DNA of 38,785 nucleotides from Melioribacteraceae bacterium (lineage in GTDB: Bacteria; Bacteroidota; Ignavibacteria; Ignavibacteriales; Melioribacteraceae): NCBI GenBank assembly GCA_022181065.1, contig BQMY01000093.1, positions 19,550 to 58,334 of the forward strand, written 5' to 3'. This document shows, piece by piece, positions 9,088 through 38,785 of this stretch. Each line of letters begins with the position of its first letter. The first letter of the stretch is position 1. The notes beneath the pieces are model-generated. The model worked only from the letters and a program-made list of their open reading frames with translations. It did not search any database and was not told the DNA's origin. The position numbers were made by a program, and so were the translations under genes.

Positions 9088-9170
9088 TCTTTTTTGAATT
9101 GGCATACCCCGATCAGAATTAAAGTTGTACACAAAACAAATGACAAAGATACTTCATCAAGGTCCTCCTT

Positions 9171-9488
9171 CCCGAAAATCCGGGTATTGCTGACTTAATA
9201 ATCAGTGTCATTCCCACGAAAGTGGGAATCCAGTTCTTTTATTTTTTATGAAGACGTGAAATCTTGTGCGTTGTGGCGTATTCAAGCCTGAGAGTTTTGA
9301 CAAAGTTGATTCGTTTCAAGGCTCTCCTACCCGAAAATCCGGGTATTGCTGACTTAATAATCAGTGTCATTCCCACGAAAGTGGGAATCCAGTTCTTTTA
9401 TTTTTTATGAAGACGTGAAATCTTGTGCGTTGTGGCGTATTCAAGTCTCAGAGTCTTGACAAAGTTGATTCGTACCAAGGCTCTCCTA
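9171..9488. repeat. 159-bp direct tandem repeat, two copies
   Basis: Copies run 9171-9329 and 9330-9488 and are nearly identical. Each contains a perfect dRS3-like hairpin (9207-9233 and 9366-9392; ATTCCCAC-GAAA-GTGGGAAT). Each also has a GAAGACGTGAAATCTTGTGCG stretch (quoted part only) related to the hairpin near 18245. No coding potential. Confidence 0.85.
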
Positions 9489-9657
9489 CCCTAAATTTTT
9501 CGGGATAGGTTTCCGGAGGTGGATTTCGACGCAAGTCGAAAGACGGAGGATGACTTATTACATTTATTGTGACTTTTGGTCATCCCCCATCACAAAATCC
9601 GCCCATGGCGGAGTTATTCCCCCCTTCAAACCTGTGCACCTTAGGTGTAAGGGGGAC
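9481..9657. repeat. Composite inverted-module palindromic element (single diverged copy)
   Basis: Relative to the array at 32222-33190 this is the same element in reverse orientation. A module ending in GGAGGATGAC (with TTTCGAC-GCAA-GTCGAAA inside) is joined through an AT-rich linker to GGTCATCCCCC, a CTCCGCC-type stem around 9600, and a terminal GGGGGAC (9651-9657). Stem sequences differ from the array copies but remain self-complementary. The remaining bases to the next gene (9658-9771) show nothing recognisable. Confidence 0.65.
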
Positions 9658-17319: not shown

Positions 17320-17352
17320 AATATTTCTCTTAATTTAGTTGAAATTCGTTTT

Positions 17353-18172
17353 GTCATGCCCTTCGCCCCGGCGAACTGATCGGGCATCTATACTCTGGAA
17401 TTGAAAAACTCTTACCTCAACCCCTAACCCCTTCTCCTGTAAACAAGAGAAGGGGAATAAATAATTGGATGAGTCCTACGATTGTTTGAGCGAATCCGCC
17501 ATTGACAAGGGATAGGCTCCTGAGGCACTCGAAGGGCCGGATATACTTACTTAATCACGCATTCACGGGAGTTTGAAAGGCTTACCCACTTACTATCCTT
17601 GGTTCCTCAACATCCGTAGCCTCGATATTAAATGTTTTGTCAGGCTCTTATTCGCGGCGAATCAGGGTGAGGTCAACTTTCATAAAAGACTGGATTCCCG
17701 TTTTCACGGAAATGACAAAAGAAAGGGACAACTCAATATTTGTTCTGTCATGCCCTTCGCCCCGGCGAACTGATCGGGCATCTATACTCTGGAATTGAAA
17801 AACTCTGACCTCAACCCCTAACCCCTTCTCCTGTAAACAAGAGAAGGGGAATAAATAATTGGATGAGTCCTACGATTGTTTGAGCGAATCCGCCATTGAC
17901 AAGGGATAGGCTCCTGAGGTACTCGAAGGGCCGGATATACTTACTTAATCACGCATTCACGGGAGTTTGAAAGGCTTACCCACTTACTATCCTTGGTTCC
18001 TCAACATCCGTAGCCTCGATATTAAATGTTTTGTCAGGCTCTTATTCGCGGCGAATTAGAGTGAGGTCAACTTTCATAAAATCCGGATTCCCGTTTTCAC
18101 GGAAATGACAAAAGAAAGGGACAACTCAATATTTGTTTTGTCATGCCATTCAAAAGGGCATCCGGTTTTTAA
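17353..18172. repeat. 394-bp direct tandem repeat, two copies plus a truncated third start
   Basis: Copies run 17353-17746 and 17747-18139 (2-base deletion in the second); a third GTCATGCC...GGGCATCC element begins at 18140 and then diverges. Each copy contains a GTCATGCCC...GGGCATC hairpin, a CCCCTTCTC...GAGAAGGGG hairpin (17428-17455) and a reversed dRS3-like hairpin near its end (17690-17716). No plausible protein is encoded. The stretch 18173-18305 holds only the hairpin listed at 18245. Confidence 0.88.
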
Positions 18173-21974: not shown

Positions 21975-22181
21975 CGTAAACCCATGAGTGAACTTAATAT
22001 TGCCATTAAGATAATCTATCCGAATTTTATTGTCAATCCAAATCATAAATAATATACCATTATTTATGTTAAGTTTAAATAATTCAGACAAGAGGATAAT
22101 ATTATTATGCTAAAAATTAGTGTTATTATAGACCATCAGCCTGATTCTATGAATGAAACCGGAGAGAGTTTTGGAAGTTTT

Positions 22182-23223
22182 GTCATGCTCTTGTATTCAC
22201 CTTTGGCGAAGGGCATCTATTTTATGGTGTCGAAAACTCTTCTTAAAAAGCTACTTGATTCCTGCTTTACGATAATTTAGAGCATTCATGATCGTCGATA
22301 GTAAAACAGAACCCACCCCAAGTTTGAGGTTTTGTCATGCCCGACATGATCGGGCATCCAGATTTTTAAGTCCCTCTACTGGCGCAGCCTGCCTGCCTTT
22401 AGCACTGGAGAGGTTCGCCTTGTAGAATTAGGGTAAGGCAAACTTTCAGAAAAGACTGGATTCCCGTTTTCACGGGAATGACCAAAGAAAGGGACAACTC
22501 TACCTTCCCGATATTTGCTTTGTCATGCCCTTGTATTCGCCTTTGGCGAAGGACATCTATCTTTTGGTCTCGAAAAGTTCTTCGTCAAAAGCTATCTTAT
22601 TTCTGCTTTACGATAATTTAGAGCATTCATGATCGTCGATAATAAAACAGAACCCACCCCAAGTTTGAGGTTTTGTCATGCCCTTCGCCCCGGCGAACTG
22701 ATCGGGCATCCAGATTTTTAAGTCCCTCTAATGGTGTAGCCTGCCTGCCTTTGGCACTGGAGAGGTTCGCCTTGTAGAATTAGGGTAAGGCAAACTTTCA
22801 GAAAAGACTGGATTCCCGTTTTCACGGGAATGACCAAAGAAAGGGACAACTCTACCTTCCCGATATTTGCTTTGTCATGCCCTTGTATTCGCCTTTGGCG
22901 AAGGGCATCTATCTTTTGGTGTCGAAAGCTCTTCTTAAAGGCTACCTTATTCCCATTTTACGATAATTTAGAGGGTGCGTGATCGTCGATAATAAAACAG
23001 AACCCACCCCAAGTTTGAGGTTTTGTCATGCTCTTCGCCCCGGCGAACTGATCGGGCATCCAGATTTTTAAGTCCCTCTCCTGGCGCAGCCTGCCTGCCT
23101 TTGGCACTGGAGAGGTTCGCCTTGTCGAATTAGGGTAAGGTCAAATTTCAGAAAAGACCGGATTCCCGTTTTCACGGGAATGACCAAAGAAAGGGACAAC
23201 TCTACCTTCCCAATATTTGCTTT
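22182..23223. repeat. Array of three approximately 340-352-bp tandem repeats
   Basis: Units begin with GTCATGC(C/T)C-TTGTATTC at 22182, 22522 and 22874. Each holds two GTCATGC...GGGCATC hairpins, a GCCTGCCTTTGGCACTGG segment, and a reversed dRS3-like hairpin (GGATTCCC-GTTTTCAC-GGGAAT). The second hairpin has a short loop in the first unit (ATGCCCGA-CATGA-TCGGGCAT) but a longer loop with an inner CGCC/GGCG stem in the others. No coding potential. The bases 21975-22181 before it hold the promoter region of the minus-strand delta-60 gene; no box is identifiable. Confidence 0.88.
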
Positions 23224-23755
23224 GTCATGCCCGACCTGATCGGGCATCTATACTCTGGAATTGAAAAACTCTTACCTCAACCCCTAACCCCTTCACGCCT
23301 CGGCGCACAGGCTCCTATCATTAGGAGCAGGGGAACTCGGGGAATCAAACAAAATCCAAACAGGAGAACTGATCGGGCATCCAGATTTTTAAGTCCCTCT
23401 GCTGGTGCAGCCTGCCTGCCTTTGGCACTGGAGAGGTTCGCCTTGTAGAATTAGGGTAAGGCAAACTTTCAGAAAAGACCGGATTCCCGTTTTCACGGGA
23501 ATGACCAAAGAAAGGGACAACTCTACCTTCCCAATATTTGCTCGTCATGCTCTTCGCCCCGGCGAACTGATAAGGCATCCGGTTTTAGGATTATACATAC
23601 TCGCTCTTTGTGAATGCTAATGTTCTGGTCAGATACACTAATTTTAGAAGTATTAGATTCCCAATCAAGTTGGGAATGACCCTGATTTTGCTCTGTCATG
23701 CCCTTGAATTCGCCTGAAGCGAAGGGCATCTATTTTTTGGTGTCGAAATACACCT
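23224..23755. repeat. Rearranged continuation of the repeat array
   Basis: A chimeric fourth unit. It starts like the 394-bp repeats (GTCATGCCC...CTATACTCTGG and the CCCCTTC hairpin), then switches near 23365 back to the GCCTGCCTTTGGCACTGG unit with its reversed dRS3-like hairpin (about 23480-23505). It ends with GTCATGC elements at about 23545 and 23695 and a perfect ATTCCCAA...TTGGGAAT hairpin near 23662-23682. Non-coding. Confidence 0.75.
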
Positions 23756-29140: not shown

Positions 29141-30632
29141 TTTCTTTTTTCTTCAAACTTTTCCTGTCGATTTTGCCCGCGTCATTTTTTGGTAACTCCG
29201 GAATAAACTCTACATGCCTGGGGATTTTATACTTTGCGAGTTTTCCGGTACAGTAATCAATTACTTCCTGCTCAGTAAGTGAGGTTCCTTCCTTTTTCAC
29301 GACAAACGCTTTTCCGCTTTCACCCCATTTGGGGTCGGGTACGCCGATAATCACAACATCATCTATCGAATCATGTTTGCGTAGCAGGTATTCAACCTGC
29401 GCGGGATAAACATTTTCTCCACCCGAGATGTACATGTTTTTTATACGGTCAACAACGTAGTAATAACCTTCGGAATCACGTCTCACAACATCACCGGTAT
29501 GGAACCACCCGCCAACAATTGTATCCATTGTCGCTTCTTCATTTTTCCAGTAGCCGGGTGTAACATTCGAACCTTTTAACAAAAATTCGCCTTCACCCTC
29601 TCCAACAATCTGGTCACCGTTTTCATCCACAATACAAGTTTCAACGTAAAAATTAGGTGTACCGATTGAGCCTTGTTTCCGGATAGCGTCAACCTCCGAA
29701 AGTGATGTAATATTGGGTCCGACTTCCGTTAAACCGTAACCCTGCCGAATTGGTACTCCCTTGTTATGCCAAACTTCAATCAACGGTATCGGCATCGCTT
29801 CACCACCAACAACCATATATCTGATTGTGGATAGTTTACGATCCACAAATTCGGGTGAATCACTCATCATCTTCAGCATTGTAGGAACCGCCCACCATAG
29901 ACTTATCTCTCTCTCCTCAATCAATTTCATTATGGCTTCGGCGTCAAACTTTCTCATCAGTATTGTTTCTGCGCCATGATGCAAAAATGGTGTGAGGAGT
30001 ACATTCCAGAAACCGGTGTGAAACGGTGGTGCCACATCGATTGAAACATCCGAAGAGGTGATTTCGAGACGCATTTCTGTGTTTATGCTGTTCCAGAATA
30101 GCATCTTGTGGCTGTAAATCGCTCCTTTCGGGAAAGCGGTTGTACCTGATGTGTAAAGGATAAATACCGGGTGATTTTCATCAAATTCGGGCACAGTCAA
30201 AGAACCATTTTCCACAGTCAGCGCTGCGGGAATAAGTTCATCAATATCAAATTTGTTTTTTATTGTTGAAAAAACCTTCGTTTTTTCAAGCTTTTCTAAA
30301 AACTGATCCTCGAACAAAAATAACGAAGGTTCACAATTTCCGATGATATAATCGAGTTCATCTGATGTCAATCTGAAATTCAACGGCACAAGAGTAATCC
30401 CTGTTTTCTGAGCGGCGCTGAACAAAGCGATCAATTCCGCGCGGTTTTCAGAAAGCACCGCTATACGATCACCTGTTTTGAGATTGTAAACCGTCGTAAG
30501 ATAGAAAGCCACTTTCTCCGCTATGTCATTCATTTCGGCATATGTGAATCTTCGTCCCGTTTCAAATTCTTCAATCGCGTTCCTGTCGGGAGTAAATCCC
30601 GCCCATTTACCTAACCAATCAAACTGATTCAT
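29133..30632 (-). CDS. AMP-forming acyl-CoA synthetase / ligase
   Basis: A 499-residue ANL-superfamily enzyme that activates a carboxylic acid to acyl-AMP and then acyl-CoA. Motifs in order: P-loop YTSGTTAFPKG (160-170), adenine-binding YGLTE (299-303), GWFHTGD with D381, hinge DRIKN (395-399), GGENVYP and catalytic K487 in PKNDAGKIDR. All are intact, so it should be active. The substrate cannot be read from sequence; the pocket and length fit medium-chain or aromatic acids. It overlaps the symporter stop by 14 bases and the KASIII start by 8, placing uptake, activation and acyl transfer in one coupled unit. Cytoplasmic. Confidence 0.93.
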   Translation of the reverse strand: MNQFDWLGKWAGFTPDRNAIEEFETGRRFTYAEMNDIAEKVAFYLTTVYNLKTGDRIAVLSENRAELIALFSAAQKTGITLVPLNFRLTSDELDYIIGNCEPSLFLFEDQFLEKLEKTKVFSTIKNKFDIDELIPAALTVENGSLTVPEFDENHPVFILYTSGTTAFPKGAIYSHKMLFWNSINTEMRLEITSSDVSIDVAPPFHTGFWNVLLTPFLHHGAETILMRKFDAEAIMKLIEEREISLWWAVPTMLKMMSDSPEFVDRKLSTIRYMVVGGEAMPIPLIEVWHNKGVPIRQGYGLTEVGPNITSLSEVDAIRKQGSIGTPNFYVETCIVDENGDQIVGEGEGEFLLKGSNVTPGYWKNEEATMDTIVGGWFHTGDVVRRDSEGYYYVVDRIKNMYISGGENVYPAQVEYLLRKHDSIDDVVIIGVPDPKWGESGKAFVVKKEGTSLTEQEVIDYCTGKLAKYKIPRHVEFIPELPKNDAGKIDRKSLKKKENE

Positions 30633-32172
30633 TTTTCATTTTATCTTTTGTGAAATAATGTACAGACAATCCAACAATGGTAGAAATTACAATCCCGGTA
30701 GATGAAGCAATAGCCGGGTTTCTCACCACACCTTGCAAATATTTGGTATAAAACCCGAATGACATTCCGTTTTCTACCAGTACAGGCAAGAAATAATAAA
30801 CTCCAAAGTGTACAACTAGTGCAGTTATTGTCGCCGCGAGGGGTGCTTTAACATCAACATCCTTGATGAATATTCCAAACAGAATCGGGATAAACGCCGC
30901 TGTGAAATACGCGTAAACACCATTCTGCGCGAGTATCGCAACCGATAATTTCGGATTTACAATCTGATCATACGAAATAAAAATTGAAACCACCGCAAGA
31001 ACGATTATGGTCACCTTGTTTACCGCGATCATCGAGGCGTCAGTTTTGAAATTTTTGCCAAACAGCGGTTTGATTATATCGGTGGTAATCGTTGATGATA
31101 AGGATTGTATTAATCCCTCCAGAGTTGACATTCCCGCGGCAATCAGACCAAGAATTACTATCAAACCAACAGCAACCGAAAATCCATCCCCCTGAAATAC
31201 CTCAACCACATAAGCGGGGATTATGCCGTCACTTTTTAACGCTTCACCGCCTGCCATCAAATCAGGGAATGTAAGTCGGGCATATAATCCCGCGAACACA
31301 ACGAGGAAAAACAAAATCTCAACTATAATTCCTACAAGCAGATATCTGTTTACATCTTTTTCTTCTTTAAGTAACAACGATTTTGTGATTATGTGGGGCT
31401 GACAAACAACAGCAAAACCTACGATAAACTGCGCCACTATTATCTCAAAATAATCACGGAATAACGGACTCGCGGGATTTGTGGATTCAGTCAGTGCCGG
31501 ATTTATAGCTGCCAGTTTATCGAAAAAGCCGCTGATTCCGTTCGCGAAATGTTCGAATCCTGATGTAAGTAGAATCACAGCAACCACTACCATTATCAAT
31601 GCCTGAATGGTATTGGTATATACCATTGAGTTTGCGCCACCAAACATCATATAACCGAATATAAAAACCACGATTGTGACCAGCACGTATATTTCCTGAA
31701 TATCGAGTGCCTTCGAAAGTACCTTGGTCAACGCGACAACAATAAGAACAATAAACGTGATGAGCAGAAGGGATAAAAATGCCATCAACAATGAATAACC
31801 TTTACTGTTATATCTGCTTCCTATCCATTGCGCGAGAGTTAAAGCCTTTGTTGTCTGACCATATTTTCGGAACGATTTTGTGAGAATAAAAAGAGAAATA
31901 ACAGCACCGAGCGGGAAAAATATCCCGAAAGAAATAAAACCGCTCCACCCGAAGTTTGCGATCAAACCGGGATTAATGACAAATGTAGCCGCGCTTGTCA
32001 TTGATGCGGCGAGTGAAAGTCCAACCGCAGCCGGAGAAAAAATCACACTTCCCACCGCATAATCCGATATACTTTTAATTCCGCGCGCGCCTCTCACAAC
32101 AAAAAAGAGGATCACACCCGCGTAAAGCGTTATCAATATCCATGTACCGGTTACTAATCCGGAACCAGCCAT
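30619..32172 (-). CDS. Sodium:solute symporter (SSS family)
   Basis: A 517-residue integral membrane protein with about 13 hydrophobic helices, of the sodium:solute symporter family. Features include the N-terminal YAVGSVIFSPAAVGLSLAAS region, SMTSAATFVINPGLIANFGW with the conserved sodium-site Ser/Thr-rich segment, and GLIAAGMSTLEGLIQSLSST (the family signature-like helix). Such carriers import organic acids, sugars, amino acids or vitamins with sodium. Its stop overlaps the ligase start, which strongly suggests the cargo is the acid activated by that ligase. The 1-kb repeat block lies directly upstream, so its 5' region is unusual; only a weak CAGGTAG-like ribosome site precedes the ATG. 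Confidence 0.93.
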   Translation of the reverse strand: MAGSGLVTGTWILITLYAGVILFFVVRGARGIKSISDYAVGSVIFSPAAVGLSLAASMTSAATFVINPGLIANFGWSGFISFGIFFPLGAVISLFILTKSFRKYGQTTKALTLAQWIGSRYNSKGYSLLMAFLSLLLITFIVLIVVALTKVLSKALDIQEIYVLVTIVVFIFGYMMFGGANSMVYTNTIQALIMVVVAVILLTSGFEHFANGISGFFDKLAAINPALTESTNPASPLFRDYFEIIVAQFIVGFAVVCQPHIITKSLLLKEEKDVNRYLLVGIIVEILFFLVVFAGLYARLTFPDLMAGGEALKSDGIIPAYVVEVFQGDGFSVAVGLIVILGLIAAGMSTLEGLIQSLSSTITTDIIKPLFGKNFKTDASMIAVNKVTIIVLAVVSIFISYDQIVNPKLSVAILAQNGVYAYFTAAFIPILFGIFIKDVDVKAPLAATITALVVHFGVYYFLPVLVENGMSFGFYTKYLQGVVRNPAIASSTGIVISTIVGLSVHYFTKDKMKNESV

Positions 32173-32221
32173 AATCTACCTGTAATTATTTTCTACTAAC
32201 ATGATTAAAACTCTTGCTACT

Positions 32222-33190
32222 GAGTCTTTTGTCCCCCTTTCGAAGGGGGAAATTCCGATGTCAATCGGAATGGGGGATGACCAAAATTCACAAAAACCGT
32301 AATAAATCATCCTCCGTCTTCCGACTAACGTCGGATGACACCTCCTTCAAAAGGAGGACTTTCAAACAACTACATTATCAAATCTAAATTCAGAGCAACA
32401 ACTTAACTTAAAGCACTGAATCTCTTGTTGCTGAGTCTTTTGTCCCCCTTTTGAAGGGGGAAATTCCGATTTAATCGGAATGGGGGATGACCAAAATTCA
32501 CAAAAACCGTAATAAATCATCCTCCGTCCTCCGACTAACGTCGGATGACACCTCCTTCAAAAGGAGGACTTTCAAACAACTACTTTATCAAATCTCAATT
32601 CAGAGCAACAACTTAACTTAAAGCACTGAATCTCTTGTTTCTGAGTCTTTTGTCCCCCTTTTGAAGGGGGAAATTCCGATTTAATCGGAATGGGGGATGA
32701 CCAAATTCACAAAACCATAATAAATCATCCTCCGTCCTCCGACTAACGTCGGATGACACCTCCTTCAAAGGAGGACTTTCAAACAACTACTTTATCAAAT
32801 CTCAATTCAGAGCAACAACTTAACTTAAAGCACTGAATCTCTTGTTACTGAGTCTTTTGTCCCCCGTCGAAGGGGGAAATTCCGATTTTAATCGGAATGG
32901 GGGATGACAAAAATTCGCAAAAACTGTAACCAATCATCCTCCGTCCTCCGACTAACGTCGGATGACACCTCCTTCAAAGGAGGACTTTCAAACAACTACT
33001 TTATCAAATCTCAATTCAGAGCAACAACTTAACTTAAAGCACTGAATCTCTTGTTGCTGAGTCTTTTGTCCCCCGTCGAAGGGGGAAATTCCGATTTTAA
33101 TCGGAATGGGGGATGACCAAATTCACAAAAACTCGAAATAAATCATCCTCCGTCCAACTTGTCCCGAATACTTTCAGGGAGAAGGACTTT
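32222..33190. repeat. Five tandem approximately 210-bp repeats made of nested palindromes
   Basis: Units start (GAGTCTTTTGTCCCCC) at 32222, 32433, 32643, 32850 and 33059; the fifth is truncated. In each, a composite element (unit 1: 32231-32359) is followed by a constant AT-rich spacer. The element holds four hairpins in order: CCCCCTT-TCG-AAGGGGG, ATTCCGAT-N3/4-ATCGGAAT, TCCGAC-TAAC-GTCGGA, and CCTCCTT-CAA-AAGGAGG. Stems are conserved while loops vary (GTCA, TTA, TTTA). The two halves of the element are inverted relatives of each other. It separates the KASIII gene at 33204 from the symporter at 32172 and contains no protein-like reading frame. Confidence 0.92.
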
Positions 33191-33203
33191 CACAAAAAGG
33201 CTA

Positions 33204-34193
33204 CTAATACCTGAAAGCTGAAGCGGCAAAAGCTAATCCGCCTCCCGAACCGATGAAATAAACTACATCGCCACGTTTAACTTTTCCCTGCGACAATGCG
33301 TCACAGAACGCTATCGGGATACATGCCGACCCGGTGTAACCGTAATAGTGCATACTCGTTTGGGCTTTATCACGTGATACATCGAGCAAATCCATCGTTT
33401 CGTAAATGCTATTAATATTTATCTGAGTAAGGAAAAATCGTTCAACATCACTGATGGGAATACCTGATTTTTCCGCTAATTCTTTCGCCATTGATGACCA
33501 TATCTGCGGATTTAGCTCAGGCGGAAACTTCTTCCTGATCTGTAAAAGTGATTCAGGTGTACCAACATTTTCGGAAGTAATCGGGGTATTGGTTCCACCC
33601 ATATAGATGCCCATATATGAATGATACTCACCTTTGGTTATCAACTTGCTGGCGAGATATCCCCTGTCGCTCTTCTCTTCCGATTTCAGGATAAAGGCAC
33701 CTGCGCCATCGGCAAAAAGATTCACAGTTTTTTTATCGAGTTTGTTGAGATACTTGCTCATGGCATAAGCACCGACAACAAGTACCGTATTGTAATTTTC
33801 ATCCGCCTTGATATATTTTACCGCTGTATCAATAGCTGTTACAAATCCGGCGCAAGCGGTGTTGATATCAAATGTACCCGCGTTTTCAAGTCCGAGTAGA
33901 TATTGTGCTTTCGATGAAGTAGATGGAGAAATATACTCGGGAGTATCAGTAGCGACAATCAGCAGATCAATTTCTTCCGGTTTAACGTCACCTTCCTTCA
34001 TGGCGTTTCGGGCAGCGTTTACCACCAGATCAGCAGTAGATTCATCTTCGGCGCACCAGCGTCTTTCATATATTTTTACAAATTCCTCAAGCCATTCACT
34101 CACATTTGTACCGAGCAGCTCATCGAAGTAAGTGTTTGGTACAATCCTTTCCGGTACGTAGAATCCTTGTGAATGTATAATAGCGTTTCGCAT
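33204..34193 (-). CDS. KASIII-like protein lacking catalytic His and Asn
   Basis: A 329-residue FabH-like protein. The nucleophile is kept: C114 in DINTACAGF, spaced as in FabH. But the His of the usual PHQAN motif is Thr (FLTQININ, T256), and the Asn of YGNTS is Tyr (YYGYTGSA, Y286). GSGGGLAFAASAFRY at the end matches the family. Without His and Asn it should not decarboxylate malonyl-ACP; it could hold or pass an acyl group on Cys, or be the non-catalytic half of a heterodimer with the KASIII at 28118-29140. It begins 10 bases after the reductase stop with an AGGA ribosome site, so the two are one operon. Confidence 0.85.
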   Translation of the reverse strand: MRNAIIHSQGFYVPERIVPNTYFDELLGTNVSEWLEEFVKIYERRWCAEDESTADLVVNAARNAMKEGDVKPEEIDLLIVATDTPEYISPSTSSKAQYLLGLENAGTFDINTACAGFVTAIDTAVKYIKADENYNTVLVVGAYAMSKYLNKLDKKTVNLFADGAGAFILKSEEKSDRGYLASKLITKGEYHSYMGIYMGGTNTPITSENVGTPESLLQIRKKFPPELNPQIWSSMAKELAEKSGIPISDVERFFLTQININSIYETMDLLDVSRDKAQTSMHYYGYTGSACIPIAFCDALSQGKVKRGDVVYFIGSGGGLAFAASAFRY

Positions 34194-38587: not shown

Positions 38588-38785
38588 GTCCTCCTTGGAA
38601 GGAGGTGGATTCCGACTTAAGTCGGAAGACGGAGGATGATTTATTGGGTTTTCGTGATAGTCCTCACCCACCTCGCAATCAAGGTTCCTGAGCCCTGTCG
38701 AAGGGCCGGGTAATTGCAGTGAGCTTGTGAGGGTGCTTCGATATGACTCAGCAACCCTCATACAAGATCCCAGAGTAGTCGCCAT
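38588..38785. repeat. Half composite palindromic element plus further repeat-like sequence
   Basis: 38588-38665 matches one module of the composite element: GTCCTCCTT-GG-AAGGAGG, TTCCGACTTAAGTCGGAA, then GGAGGATGATTTATT. After the linker it diverges. The rest to the window end contains a CCCTGTCGAAGGG hairpin and imperfect complementary CCTCAC / GTGAGG segments, typical of dispersed spacers, and no gene. 38488-38587 shows nothing recognisable. Confidence 0.65.

Follow-up and report, generated by a model that had tools for sequence, protein, structure and literature searches.

A tandem array in a Melioribacteraceae genome probably derived from an IS1182-type miniature element that duplicates target hairpins

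The array and its gene setting

The sequence analyzed here, referred to throughout as the window, is a stretch of 38,785 nt from a Melioribacteraceae bacterium (GCA_022181065.1, contig BQMY01000093.1, positions 19,550 to 58,334 of the forward strand). Within it, an ACP synthase III (KASIII-like) gene and a sodium:solute symporter (SSF) gene are separated by a gap that contains a tandem array. The array was placed in the window by TRF at 32211 to 33155 (period 210, 4.5 copies, score 1668), and five cores were extracted from it at core-to-core spacings of 211, 210, 207, and 209, which bears out the original prediction of five tandem copies at 32222 to 33190. The array contains no ORF of 100 aa or more. 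Its features and the flanking genes are as follows.

30619 to 32172, minus strand: sodium:solute symporter (SSF) gene, downstream of the array
32231 to 32359, plus strand: core copy 1, left module and inverted right module, 129 nt
32388 to 32421, no strand: spacer palindrome 1, ATTCAG...CTGAAT, 34 nt
32442 to 32569, plus strand: core copy 2, 128 nt
32598 to 32631, no strand: spacer palindrome 2, same sequence as palindrome 1
32652 to 32776, plus strand: core copy 3, 125 nt
32805 to 32838, no strand: spacer palindrome 3, same sequence as palindrome 1
32859 to 32985, plus strand: core copy 4, 127 nt
33014 to 33047, no strand: spacer palindrome 4, same sequence as palindrome 1
33068 to 33187, plus strand: core copy 5, right module divergent, 120 nt, 64.9 bits
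33204 to 34193, minus strand: ACP synthase III (KASIII-like) gene, upstream of the array

The 129-base tandem unit originally described corresponds in length to the core, but the unit that is repeated is about 210 bp long, comprising the core, two arms, and a spacer with the 34-nt palindrome, and full copies elsewhere in the genome are also larger than the core. The 129-nt unit is best read as the structured core within a larger element that is dispersed in the genome. Its construction from two inverted homologous modules was confirmed with a model built from plus-strand cores, which also matched the minus strand of copies 1 to 4 at 46.8 to 51.9 bits. The palindrome is letter-for-letter identical in all four inter-core gaps. 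From its position in the array, it would be the counterpart of the target hairpins described below; the degenerate end motifs of the array copies and the weak fold of the spacer palindrome (z of −0.10, with 84 of 200 shuffles as stable) keep this assignment tentative.

The gap between the two genes was compared across 42 loci obtained by a KASIII protein search of genome contigs, in which the closest match was 73% identical and came from a MAG named Ignavibacteriae. The symporter gene starts at most 434 nt past the KASIII stop in 13 of these loci, and the gap is 9 to 65 nt in 12 of the 13 (9 to 19 nt at L171 to L175). Of the remaining 29 loci, the best symporter match falls in another part of the locus in 15, a symporter match is missing from the stretch in 12, and the gap measures 1039 nt in two. 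Because the gap is this short in 12 relatives and 1031 nt long in the window, the array block is best read, from sequence comparison, as DNA inserted at a junction where the two genes otherwise lie close together. A search between 31900 and 33500 turned up neither terminator-like nor promoter-like sites, which suggests that transcription is probably not simply terminated by the array.

The dispersed family and its flanks

The genome-wide covariance-model search suggested with the original prediction found many further copies. A model of the core built from 27 sequences matched at least 147 places in the host genome (E ≤ 1e-3, from the best 150 of 2747 candidates scored), and a DNA search of the same genome with the element gave at least 45 matches (from the best 40 of 166 candidates scored). 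Searched with stricter filters and at most the best 59 candidates scored per genome, 57 relatives gave no match to the core model; 33 of them belong to the host's family and 24 to its order, and none to its genus. Around the host matches, 98 stretches were taken, and 112 cores were located in them with a profile search; of these, 107 were kept as reaching far enough into the model with at least 60 nt on both sides, and the five array cores stand outside the 107. Two further cores lie in the window.

9505 to 9639, minus strand: core copy with recognizable end motifs (L124)
38588 to 38710, minus strand: diverged core copy

The left module of the second is largely swapped for another hairpin sequence. 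The window also holds three more intergenic tandem arrays, at 9156 to 9495, 17344 to 18151, and 22179 to 23232 (periods of 159, 394, and 350, respectively); the first adjoins the core at 9505 to 9639 and has a right-arm-like stretch in its unit, and the other two consist of different hairpin repeats.

The mode of growth of the array was assessed from the relatedness of its copies. An alignment (A1) was made from 27 of 43 extracted cores, four from the array and 23 dispersed, leaving out copies that were truncated, had insertions in a loop, or had partial ends. All five array copies have a single orientation, and neighboring copies share local variants. Successive insertions of the element, each into a hairpin duplicated by the one before, would account for the order element-hairpin-element-hairpin, and head-to-tail or partly tandem arrangements are found elsewhere at L012 (period 266), L097, L109, L122, and L140. 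This route is nevertheless unlikely, since the four array cores in A1 have a mean identity of 90% among themselves but 79% to the 23 dispersed cores (best 87.5%), and since the array has one orientation, identical spacers, and variants found nowhere else. Together with the near-constant spacing, the same features make duplication in place the better fit to these sequences, in agreement with the initial proposal of amplification inside an operon; the two neighboring genes are co-directional.

Full copies of the element end in motifs like gagrTTGTTGAAAAAC and GACTTTGTCAACAGtCTG. At the thresholds used, both motifs were recognized in 41 of the 107 placements, one in 26, and none in 40; the motif-to-motif length is 186 to 221 bp in 39 of the two-ended copies and 240 and 269 bp in the other two. 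The right-end motif and the core belong together, since the motif has 54 matches in the genome (at most two mismatches), compared to a single match when the pattern is reversed, and a core lies within 70 nt of it in 29 of 30 cases examined, the exception beginning at a contig end.

The flanks of these copies commonly form direct repeats. In a test that supersedes an earlier one on 18 of 40 copies, a flank score of at least 24 was reached by 28 of the 41 two-ended copies compared to 0.7% of 1640 swapped pairs, and several of the 13 copies below this threshold still have a hairpin on one or both sides. When the flanks were lengthened and end motifs were no longer demanded, 44 of the 107 placements scored at least 26, compared to 1.4% of 2650 swapped pairs, a control whose maximum of 238 reflects loci of one array among the pairs. 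The repeat lies exactly at the expected boundary, with a score of at least 26, in 31 of the 107 placements. These boundary duplications fold better than shuffles in 24 of the 31 at p ≤ 0.01 and in 28 at p ≤ 0.05, and 29 of them are 16 to 38 nt long; the remaining two owe their length of 62 and 86 nt to a further copy or unit that comes next. In the 29 short duplications, the copy that pairs better forms a median of 7 pairs, and pairing begins at the first base in 18. Judged by these pairings, the length of the duplication tracks the hairpin, ending at the stem feet, and is not set by a fixed stagger. IS1182 duplications, as recorded in ISfinder/TnPedia, can be palindromes of 0 to 60 bp. The direct sense was better than the inverted in all 29 short duplications, a set that was itself chosen by direct similarity, and among 16 further loci scoring at least 24 in either sense, the inverted was slightly to clearly better in four (L023, L025, L087, and L111). 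Dispersed copies, terminal repeats, flanking duplications, and the short gap in relatives all support the original view of the sequence as a non-autonomous palindromic mobile element.

An A-rich stretch lies ahead of the left hairpin copy in 19 of the 29 short duplications (26% in the control), and a T-rich stretch lies past the right copy in 17 (19% in the control). Flanking ORFs of at least 70 aa, counted from stop to stop, present their 3′ end on 32 of 44 sides, within 50 nt in 29 of the 32. The hairpin fold, the A-rich and T-rich sides, and the ORF 3′ ends point to a pre-insertion site that would typically consist of an A-rich stretch, a hairpin, and a T-rich stretch at gene ends, which is the anatomy of a bidirectional terminator. 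The flanking hairpins might instead be pre-existing pairs of similar terminators, or the element might spread together with its hairpin; some of the hairpins resemble REP sequences and might have further copies in the genome, and the palindromes around a related IS in genome G002 (described below) have inverted loops. We regard both of these possibilities as quite improbable, given that the hairpins differ between loci but agree within a locus (swapped control) and that the A-rich side stays with the left copy and the T-rich side with the right one, as if one hairpin had been split.

Fold and covariation of the core

Four small hairpins are possible in the core, as had been predicted alongside a long-range fold, but copy 1 at minimum energy is predicted to adopt a single branched structure with long-range pairing. 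Its energy is −60.8 kcal/mol on the plus strand and −67.0 kcal/mol on the minus strand, with z of approximately −7 on each strand and none of 200 shuffles as stable. In A1, 98.7% of cells pair. Cells changed on both sides number 37, compared to 15.1 in shuffled alignments (reached in 0 of 500) and 0 to 5 in slid controls. Pairs with a change on both sides number 4 compared to 2.7 (12 of 500), all of them in the two inner hairpins, and further pair types, at 11 compared to 12.0 in shuffled alignments, are not above chance. In an alignment of 35 cores (A3), 46 cells changed on both sides compared to 18.0 shuffled (0 of 500) and 8 to 21 slid, and 14 pairs had both-side change compared to 8.6 shuffled (4 of 500). 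Nearly all of the A3 covariation is in the inner hairpins, with none in the middle stem and two single cells in the outer stem. Since the variants partly fall into two haplotypes, independent events are fewer than these cell counts. As read from the alignments, the inner hairpins are kept as hairpins, with modest covariation, and the long-range stems are conserved in sequence but by covariation neither supported nor refuted. The claim that stems persist by matched changes can be retained for the inner hairpins; it does not extend to the long-range stems, with little or no covariation.

A role as a structured RNA or attenuator controlling the symporter gene, in which the array would be regulatory and its mobility secondary, could draw on the very stable fold of copy 1, on inner-hairpin covariation in excess of the shuffled and slid controls, and on the location of the array in a co-directional gene pair. 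Such a role is very unlikely to be the main explanation. An Rfam search of the window gave no match above the gathering score, the core occurs at 147 or more scattered places and in none of the 57 relatives, the region from 31900 to 33500 holds no terminator-like site, and the long-range stems have little or no compensatory change.

Candidate transposase, related systems, and variant copies

REP/BIME repeats with RAYT transposases are palindromic, intergenic, and present in many copies, and REP elements carry a short GTAG-type motif. Flanking direct duplications are not an expected product of single-strand HUH transposition. A PF01797 search of the host genome found two Y1 transposase genes. 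Mobilization as a REP/BIME-like repeat by a REP-associated tyrosine (Y1/RAYT) transposase, the route originally suggested, is highly improbable despite these genes and the palindromic, intergenic, many-copy character of the element, because both Y1 genes carry other hairpin repeats, with the element near one of them only as a right-end remnant, and because the element is larger and two-ended, has direct flanking duplications, and has no Y1-gene link that could be found; its ends and duplications point instead to a DDE transposase of the IS1182 type. At L001, other hairpin repeats (CCCACGACTGAAGTCATGGG and CCCATGGTTTCAACCATGGG types) form a tandem array next to a Y1 gene, which is what a RAYT-like gene would be expected to show.

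Matches to PF13751 occur in 23 of 57 family genomes, the host counted. The single host gene (L049) is broken into two pieces in different frames. Both pieces match the NCBIfam IS1182 transposase model, and the larger scores 250.9 bits, below the cut-off of 270. The ends of L049 only loosely resemble those of the element; for this reason, it was dropped as the driver and is kept as a sign that an IS1182-type IS is or was present in the host. A degraded relative, L050 (G000:C74), has more than 100 bp of the right end in common with L049.

A closer candidate was found in G002, a genome of a related genus. Its locus L143 encodes an intact transposase of 481 aa (NCBIfam IS1182, 472 bits against a cut-off of 270), and the ends of this IS equal those of the best element copies (e.g., L022) over 16 of 16 bases on each side. 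Among eight loci compared (seven of relatives and host L049), only L143 has the ends of the element. Like the element, the L143 IS is flanked by palindromes, here of 17 nt at 1303 to 1319 and 2890 to 2906; unlike the element, it carries a transposase and no core, and its palindromes combine identical stems with mutually reverse-complementary loops (TCC and GGA), in contrast to the 29 direct cases. The inverted loops perhaps reflect an inversion after insertion, or another strand outcome. A search of 79 family genomes with the L143 protein (E ≤ 1e-30) returned only G002 itself and one 32% relative. In the host, a protein search of the 164-contig assembly (E ≤ 1e-30) found no L143-type transposase, and the DNA of the L143 IS had no match among the best 40 of 76 candidates scored, on which ground an origin of the element by internal deletion of that IS was rejected. 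As no intact cognate transposase was found in the 164-contig assembly, a driver in the host is presumed; it may have been lost or may be absent from the assembly.

Collectively, these results make it very probable that the element is a MITE driven by an IS1182-type transposase, with duplication of the whole target stem-loop, and that it was amplified in place at this locus. The core would sit within a transposase-less MITE whose full copies, mostly 186 to 221 bp, have IS1182-like terminal inverted repeats, and an IS1182-type DDE transposase would move it in trans. Its target would be a gene-end hairpin, often resembling a bidirectional terminator. After insertion, the whole stem-loop is present on each side of the element; this is the outcome seen at the dispersed copies, and it presumably arises by joining at the stem feet. 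At 32222 to 33190, a copy of the family would have inserted between two operon genes that were separated by a short gap, and unequal recombination or slippage would then most likely have amplified the unit of core, arms, and spacer in place. We see an even chance that the transposase reads an extruded hairpin by its shape and joins at the feet, duplicating the whole stem-loop whatever its sequence or length (16 to 38 nt). If this is true, each insertion would leave a terminator on both sides and do little harm, which could explain the high copy number, and the hairpin duplications would be direct repeats from which tandem arrays can grow. The terminator kept on each side also suggests how the element reaches more than 100 places yet stays intergenic.

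According to the cited passages, IS1272 and TnSha1 of the IS1182 family insert at hairpins, several of which are confirmed terminators, with no primary sequence preference at the target (PMC4923244, PMC5678879). The element resembles them in its IS1182-type character and its insertion at hairpins or terminators but duplicates the stem-loop, whereas IS1272 is described as removing it, with no target duplication (PMC4923244). Stem-loop loss of that kind was not the pattern among the 41 two-ended copies, 28 of which have matching flanks. As pathway b of their model, Wan et al. (2017) raise the possibility of a duplicated stem-loop when the attack falls on the other stem feet, and the portion of their Discussion drawn on here names no example (PMC5678879). 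Hairpin use by IS1182-type elements was thus known from an IS that removes the stem-loop, and the proposed duplication outcome is seen here. With approximately 30 insertions that have this outcome and a candidate intact IS in a relative, the model is directly testable. A literature search of open-licence papers found no IS1182-type MITE with stem-loop duplications. As far as its cited description goes, MITEPye1 of Paracoccus yeei is like the element in being short, intergenic, and devoid of a transposase, with long stem-loop folds and terminal repeats resembling those of the IS1182 family; it has 4-bp duplications and one to three chromosomal copies (PMC11578231), whereas the element has hairpin duplications of 16 to 38 nt, more than 100 places, and tandem arrays. 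BrickBuilt of Porphyromonas gingivalis is likewise presented as an intergenic bacterial MITE with tandem repetition, but its repeat is 23 nt long and lies inside the MITE, whereas the array here repeats the element together with its spacer (PMC4596501).

Several variant copies were noted in the host genome (G000). Small hairpins (CCTGTGCGCCTCAGGCGTA or CCTGTCCCG...CGGGA type) lie inside the left or right outer hairpin loop of some cores (L024, L025, L029, L032, L033, L036, L041, L042, L046, L047, L048, and others) and form a second, nested insertion layer. At L029, L032, L036, and L044, a different right arm (like AACCAGCAGCTTTGCCAAtGgTCAAAAGTCCTTCCCTTT) replaces the usual end and is perhaps another end subtype. 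Contigs C84, C91, C103, and C123 stop 52 to 56 nt past a core (L026, L088, L091, and L223). Near the ends of C84, C101, C103, and C143, the 36-nt TGTTTTAGCATGAAAACCACTAAGTTGACGCCATTG abuts half a core hairpin, either as an assembly break at the palindrome or as a shared joint.
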